Shown here piece after piece: positions 11,755 to 12,232 of a stretch of 64,000 nt of DNA. A model generated the notes under the pieces. It was not told the origin of the DNA, ran no database searches, and worked only from the letters and a program-made list of their open reading frames with translations. Origin of the DNA: Chryseobacterium capnotolerans (GTDB taxonomy: Bacteria; Bacteroidota; Bacteroidia; Flavobacteriales; Weeksellaceae); contig NZ_CP065589.1 in assembly GCF_021278965.1 (NCBI RefSeq), positions 129,001 through 193,000 of the forward strand, written 5' to 3'. The translations under genes and the position numbers were made by a program. Positions within the stretch are counted from its first letter, which is position 1, and each line of letters begins with the position of its first letter.

Positions 11755-12016
11755 TTTGTTTTCTAGTGTTTTTACCCCTTCGTTCTCTTTGCAAACTTAT
11801 AACTATTACCGCGGAAATAACATCCGTATTTTCCCGGTATTTTGTATGGGTTTTTTCCCGAACATTAGATGATAAAATACTATATAATATTTTATTTTAA
11901 ATATAATTGTCTGATTAATAAAAGAATGTGTATATTTAAATCTCCATAAAAGGAAATAAAAAGAGAGGGATCCGAAAATCTTAAAGAGTAGGAAATTAAT
12001 ACTAAACAAAATAATT

Positions 12017-12172
12017 ATGAAAAATTCAAAAAAACTTTCAAGAGGAGAAATGAAAACTGTAAAAGGCGCTATTAATGGGTGTAATCCACAGATATTTTGT
12101 AGTAGTCCACAGACAAAGTGTTGCCCAGGATGGGTTTGTGCTGGTATAAGACAATATTGTATAGCTCTATAA
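12017..12172 (+). CDS. Bacteriocin-like peptide with a six-cysteine knottin-like core (51 aa)
   Basis: The ATG at 12017 opens a 51-codon frame too short for routine gene calling. Residues 1-18 (MKNSKKLSRGEMKTVKGA) match the leader style of Chryseobacterium bacteriocin-like peptides: a KKLSRxExKxxKG core, here ending in Gly-Ala instead of Gly-Gly. The remaining 33 residues hold six cysteines (22, 28, 35, 36, 41, 48) in the order C-x5-C-x6-CC-x4-C-x6-C. This spacing fits the inhibitor-cystine-knot framework known from animal toxins and plant knottins. A strong terminator follows at once. It is a single gene, with no transporter or protease next to it. Leader processing, export and disulfide formation are inferred. 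Confidence 0.75.
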   Translation: MKNSKKLSRGEMKTVKGAINGCNPQIFCSSPQTKCCPGWVCAGIRQYCIAL

Positions 12173-12192: not shown

Positions 12193-12232
12193 AGATACAA
12201 AAGAGAGGAAATAATCCTCTCTTTTTGTATCT
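12193..12232 (+). terminator. Terminator of the cysteine-rich peptide gene
   Basis: AGATACAAAAGAGAGGA pairs with TCCTCTCTTTTTGTATCT (one bulge) around AATAA, with a U-rich 3' arm. It closes a monocistronic peptide unit. Confidence 0.8.

Follow-up and report, generated by a model that had tools for sequence, protein, structure and literature searches.

A Chryseobacterium peptide gene joining a bacteriocin-type leader to a probable knottin-like six-cysteine core

Analysis of a 64,000-nucleotide stretch of the Chryseobacterium capnotolerans genome (contig NZ_CP065589.1, positions 129,001 to 193,000; hereafter the window) shows that the short reading frame at 12017-12172 is a genuine gene, catalogued at NCBI as NF047792, "CCPGW family putative bacteriocin". 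We lean, by a small margin, towards the view that its product is the precursor of a secreted mini-protein of the inhibitor-cystine-knot type, which is exported and oxidised in trans and used in antagonism. If true, this would be a case of convergence with venom and plant knottins within a bacteriocin-type export system.

A chance reading frame is excluded because the product exceeds the curated cut-offs of both NF047792 (CCPGW_fam; 96.8 bits against 80, residues 1-51) and the leader model NF047798 (leader_Chryseo; 34.9 bits against 23.5, residues 1-18). A family model for the gene already exists at NCBI; the window gene is a member of it, and the model's label makes no mention of a knottin fold, an exporter, disulfide enzymes or an RNA element. 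The initial annotation, made from the sequence alone, had described a product of 51 residues (51 codons) with cysteines at 22, 28, 35, 36, 41 and 48, and a leader of the Chryseobacterium bacteriocin-like type ending in Gly-Ala, all of which was recovered here. The Gly-Ala end is typical of the family, being present in 65 of 67 intact peptides and replaced by Gly-Ser in the other two. These 67, the window's included, were extracted by a script that selected for CCPGW, a motif fixing no cysteines but III and IV; a 68th (L051), with CCEGW, was read by eye.

Table 1. Features of the peptide locus and of the distant exporter locus
Feature	Position	Strand	Basis or detail
Probable Bacteroidetes-type promoter	11907..11938	+	TTG 11907-11909, 21 nucleotides, TATATTTA 11931-11938; read from the sequence
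DUF805b RNA element (Rfam RF02914), presumed 5' untranslated region	11962..11994	+	Rfam match
CCPGW-family precursor peptide gene	12017..12172	+	51 residues plus stop; reading frame and family match
Leader, residues 1-18, ending Gly-Ala	12017..12070	+	NF047798 match to residues 1-18
Six-cysteine core, 33 residues, C-x5-C-x6-CC-x4-C-x6-C, knottin-like	12071..12169	+	Toxin_12, AlphaFold2 core model, Foldseek
Hairpin, probable terminator	12194..12231	+	Fold -20.6 kcal/mol, z -7.17
Exporter locus: VKOR, thioredoxin-like, C39-ABC, HlyD, two leader peptides	L151:7916-13567 (G000:C1 about 4131916-4137567)

The proposal that the C-C-CC-C-C spacing is of cystine-knot type is sustained by comparison with the Pfam family Toxin_12 (PF07740), which we take to comprise ion channel inhibitory toxins, the spider knottins. 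Both the whole window protein (21.3 bits) and its core (21.8 bits) score just over the gathering score of 21, the match to the protein spanning profile positions 9-29 of 30 and leaving the first cysteine uncovered. All four cores tested exceed this score (best 29.9 bits), and each of the 62 distinct family members matches at E<=1 (best 7.9e-7). These matches are mostly lost in cysteine-fixed shuffles, with 1 of 50 matching (E 0.02). When 395 genomes from the order were searched in six frames, 13 had a match at E<=0.01, which in 8 of them fell at CCPGW genes; none of 14 controls matched. The spacing from cysteine II to cysteine VI is the same as in the solved hainantoxin-3, in an ungapped alignment that is not significant (E 0.39). 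The peptide has this sequence match in common with the Toxin_12 spider toxins, while being bacterial and bearing a bacteriocin-type leader; the likeness is probably convergent, with no implication of common descent.

The AlphaFold2 model of the core (mean predicted local distance difference test score, pLDDT, 83.4; predicted template modelling score, pTM, 0.45) looks knottin-like, in agreement with the annotation's expectation. Foldseek returned 4 matches to the full-length model and 17 to the core model, none significant alone, comprising venom toxins, the squash trypsin inhibitor EETI-II, an amylase inhibitor and two cysteine-rich peptides. Of the core-model matches we take 15 to be cystine knots, the titles of 6av8 and 9crb not saying. 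On sequence comparison and modelling, the knottin interpretation appears to hold up, short of proof, and the core is likely to fold in this manner. Alternatively, the gene might encode a disulfide-rich secreted peptide of bacteriocin type with another cysteine pairing, its likeness to knottins being no more than surface convergence in a short motif of six cysteines. This would accord with the weak individual Foldseek scores, with the C-C-CC-C-C order being found in only 7 of the 36 six-cysteine leader-type peptides of the window genome, and with the existence of bacterial peptides that have other cysteine folds resembling eukaryotic ones, such as laterosporulin and actinomycesin, as described in the portions consulted of PMC6024828 and PMC8819291. 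The family-wide extent of the Toxin_12 matches, their sensitivity to cysteine-fixed shuffling and the composition of the Foldseek list speak against it, and we regard it as unlikely.

The cysteine framework is strictly maintained among orthologues. Among 320 genomes from the bacterial family, 68, the window's included, hold a CCPGW_fam match over the cut-off, and all 68 belong to a single genus; a named collection yielded 26 loci, one of them a weak match, and these likewise all bear the name Chryseobacterium. A comparison of cysteine patterns among the relatives, of the kind that the initial annotation had suggested, found all six cysteines kept in the same order in each of the 68 orthologous genes, with spacings among the scripted peptides of 5-6-0-4-6 in 35 and 5-5-0-4-6 in 32. 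The ratio of non-synonymous to synonymous substitution rates (dN/dS; 67 distinct gene sequences) is about 0.22 in the core and 0.35 in the leader, and hence the gene is under purifying selection.

In the window genome, NF047798 gives 77 leader matches at E<=10, of which 42 are over the cut-off. Among 74 leader-type frames read mechanically, 72 are at least 40 residues long, and 66 of these have an even number of cysteines (four in 25, six in 36, eight in 4 and none in 1). The initial annotation had counted leader-bearing homologues that do not conserve the six cysteines as evidence against a knottin; dozens of such paralogues do exist, with other cysteine patterns, whereas the orthologues conserve all six. 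We read this combination as pointing to a modular leader joined to varied cores. A separate cluster of four six-cysteine leader peptides (L062; G000:C1:3267760-3268722), whose tested members have no Pfam match over the cut-off, displays a second knottin-like framework, C-x5-C-x4-CC-x3-C-x4-C.

No transporter-peptidase adjoins the peptide gene, as had been noted at the outset: the single Peptidase_C39 match of the window genome at E<=0.001 lies at 4.13 Mb (G000:C1:4133774, on which the window occupies 129001-193000). The C39 domain is part of an ATP-binding cassette (ABC) transporter. In its vicinity are genes for VKOR, thioredoxin-like and HlyD proteins, together with two leader peptides whose genes both have a DUF805b element ahead of them. 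In 19 further stretches selected for examination, a C39 orthologue of at least 86% identity was present in 14, with VKOR and thioredoxin-like genes upstream in 12; of the other two, one is without both genes and one begins too near to tell. The remaining five comprise three with only a distant C39 (27-34%), one from another genus (G003) with a 56% C39 and weak VKOR and thioredoxin-like matches, and one with VKOR and a thioredoxin-like gene and a partial C39 match. Among the matches listed, an exporter orthologue of at least 89% identity occurs in all 68 CCPGW genomes, and in at least 146 of 160 leader-positive against at least 2 of 13 leader-negative genomes of the genus (Fisher p 4e-9, uncorrected for kinship, the counts being lower bounds). 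One leader-positive genome, G082, gave no C39 match. The C39-ABC exporter presumably handles the window peptide, and it is very likely that the peptide is exported and disulfide-bonded. It seems to be one of dozens of cysteine-rich peptides in the genome, all of which might be served by the same apparatus for export and disulfide formation. A lone exporter near disulfide enzymes offers a testable model for the production of many disulfide-bonded peptides by a Gram-negative bacterium.

The RNA element upstream of the gene (RF02914) exceeds its gathering score (40.6 bits against 35.6, E 4.5e-10) and ends 22 nucleotides 5' of the start codon. Its core, as a regular expression, precedes 65 of the 67 orthologues, with close variants before the other two. 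The window genome has 10 DUF805b matches clear of background, 9 of them over the gathering score; 8 lie directly 5' of leader-peptide genes, those of the exporter locus included, one precedes an 86-residue reading frame and one a 182-residue protein. In its exact form the core pattern was found 7 times in this genome, always before leader genes, against none for a reversed control. Across the genus, the element is present in 58 of 59 sampled genomes. In the 30 best-scoring (not randomly chosen) genus loci, with downstream genes named by eye, it is followed by leader peptides of the present type in 18, other short peptides in 3, signal-like small proteins in 3, a 197-residue protein in 4, a caspase-like protein in 1 and the 182-residue protein in 1. 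The link between DUF805b and leader-peptide genes is a new observation and supplies the RNA family with a candidate regulon, which may extend past peptides because the element also precedes the 182-residue protein. By eye, this last protein (L203:1562-2110, L257) resembles phage tail-collar or microcystin-dependent proteins, and the caspase-like protein (L233, in G086) has 281 residues. The small proteins after the element (L201:1566-1826, L242, L249, L252) have a signal-peptide-like start and several cysteines. One of the 182-residue proteins and one of the small proteins were compared with NCBIfam, without a match. Upstream of the element, the putative promoter conforms to the Bacteroidetes consensus TTG/TAnnTTTG. 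Across the upstream regions of 67 orthologues, conservation is high in the TATATTTA part and lower in the TTG part; a sigma-70-like match overlaps the promoter, such matches being no commoner than in shuffles. The gene's own strong terminator, claimed at the outset, is upheld as to a strong hairpin (z -7.2), but its U-run forms part of the stem and the hairpin is absent from the output of a scan for consensus terminators.

Given the above observations, the C39 domain would cleave after residue 18 (Gly17-Ala18) and export the 33-residue core, while VKOR and the thioredoxin-like protein would drive disulfide formation; the core may then adopt the knottin fold with I-IV, II-V and III-VI pairing. 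Once outside the cell, this stable peptide might bind a target and so serve in antagonism, with other bacteria as the likeliest opponents, and the DUF805b element might co-regulate it with other secreted peptides. We hold the chances of an antagonistic role to be even. An exported knottin might instead be aimed at eukaryotes (protist grazers, nematodes, insects or plants), where it could, for example, inhibit a protease, an amylase or a channel. The closest likenesses in sequence and structure are indeed to channel toxins and trypsin or amylase inhibitors, no immunity gene is obvious and the gene has been maintained long-term; yet a common fold tells little of the target, and the NCBI curators, whose grounds we have not seen, named the family a putative bacteriocin. 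This reading seems to us improbable. More doubtful still is a signalling pheromone or self-directed peptide sent through the shared exporter, as might be suggested by the gene's conservation in a single copy whose core evolves slowly, and by the fact that C39 exporters also transport pheromones. The six conserved cysteines and the dozens of sister peptides suggest an arsenal instead, and the scan of three neighbouring window genes showed an M1 peptidase, an O-methyltransferase and an NlpC/P60 protein but no receptor or kinase. That the gene is not functional, despite a disrupted copy in one relative (G142), is hardly credible in view of the 67 other intact orthologues, the purifying selection, the conserved upstream block and the RNA element. 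Beyond the single peptide, we entertain only tentatively the wider notion that true knottins arose in Chryseobacterium separately from those of animals and plants and belong to an arsenal of dozens of modular precursors per genome, for which a lone C39-ABC exporter with its own VKOR/thioredoxin folding pair works in trans and some of which DUF805b switches together.

The closest tested precedent is provided by the bacteroidetocins, class IIf bacteriocins of Bacteroidetes which, in the portions consulted of PMC6671954, kill Bacteroidales and combine a short glycine-ending leader and cysteines with an ABC transporter/peptidase and a thiol oxidoreductase. These components are common to both systems. 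However, there are four cysteines in each of bacteroidetocins A and B, which adjoin their own transporter genes, and at least two in further candidates, whereas the window peptide has six and lies far from its putative exporter; killing has been demonstrated for bacteroidetocins, while antagonism by the window peptide is putative. Since cysteine number and gene location differ, assignment to the bacteroidetocins was rejected. Laterosporulin and actinomycesin are likewise bacterial, disulfide-stabilised mini-proteins of eukaryotic type; their published descriptions, rather than a sequence comparison, set them apart as defensin-like. As such defensin-like bacterial peptides are already known, it is the knottin fold that would be the surprise; a phrase search, titles, abstract openings and one review turned up no bacterial knottin.

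The chromosomal setting suggests a simple history. The O-methyltransferase and NlpC/P60 genes that lie 3' of the peptide gene in the window occur in all 68 fetched loci, which comprise those of the 67 other genomes over the cut-off and G142. Both genes are also present in all 30 peptide-negative genomes examined (picked from about 104 of the genus), and an OmpA-like gene lies inside 1.5 kb upstream in 29. At the corresponding loci of these 30 genomes CCxGW was found on neither strand, and the DUF805b pattern in one alone (G016), where it belongs to a divergent gene for the 197-residue protein. In a tree built on 99 methyltransferase rows (69 peptide-positive, G142 included; midpoint-rooted, with bootstrap support not settled and negatives sampled), peptide presence requires 5 changes against 26.0 in shuffles, with none of 500 as low, and one well-supported group of 56 rows is wholly peptide-positive. 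The few changes and the shared flanking genes indicate a single chromosomal site, which the gene probably entered on one or a few occasions, to be passed down thereafter and lost in some lineages. No peptide matches were found among plasmids and phages. The 197-residue protein, which has no NCBIfam match, adjoins the CCPGW gene divergently in 27 of the 68 loci and occurs without it in G016. By eye it has an N-terminal membrane anchor, and it has its own DUF805b element (L232, L238, L240, L251; also L259); it is possibly an immunity protein or the product of an unrelated gene.
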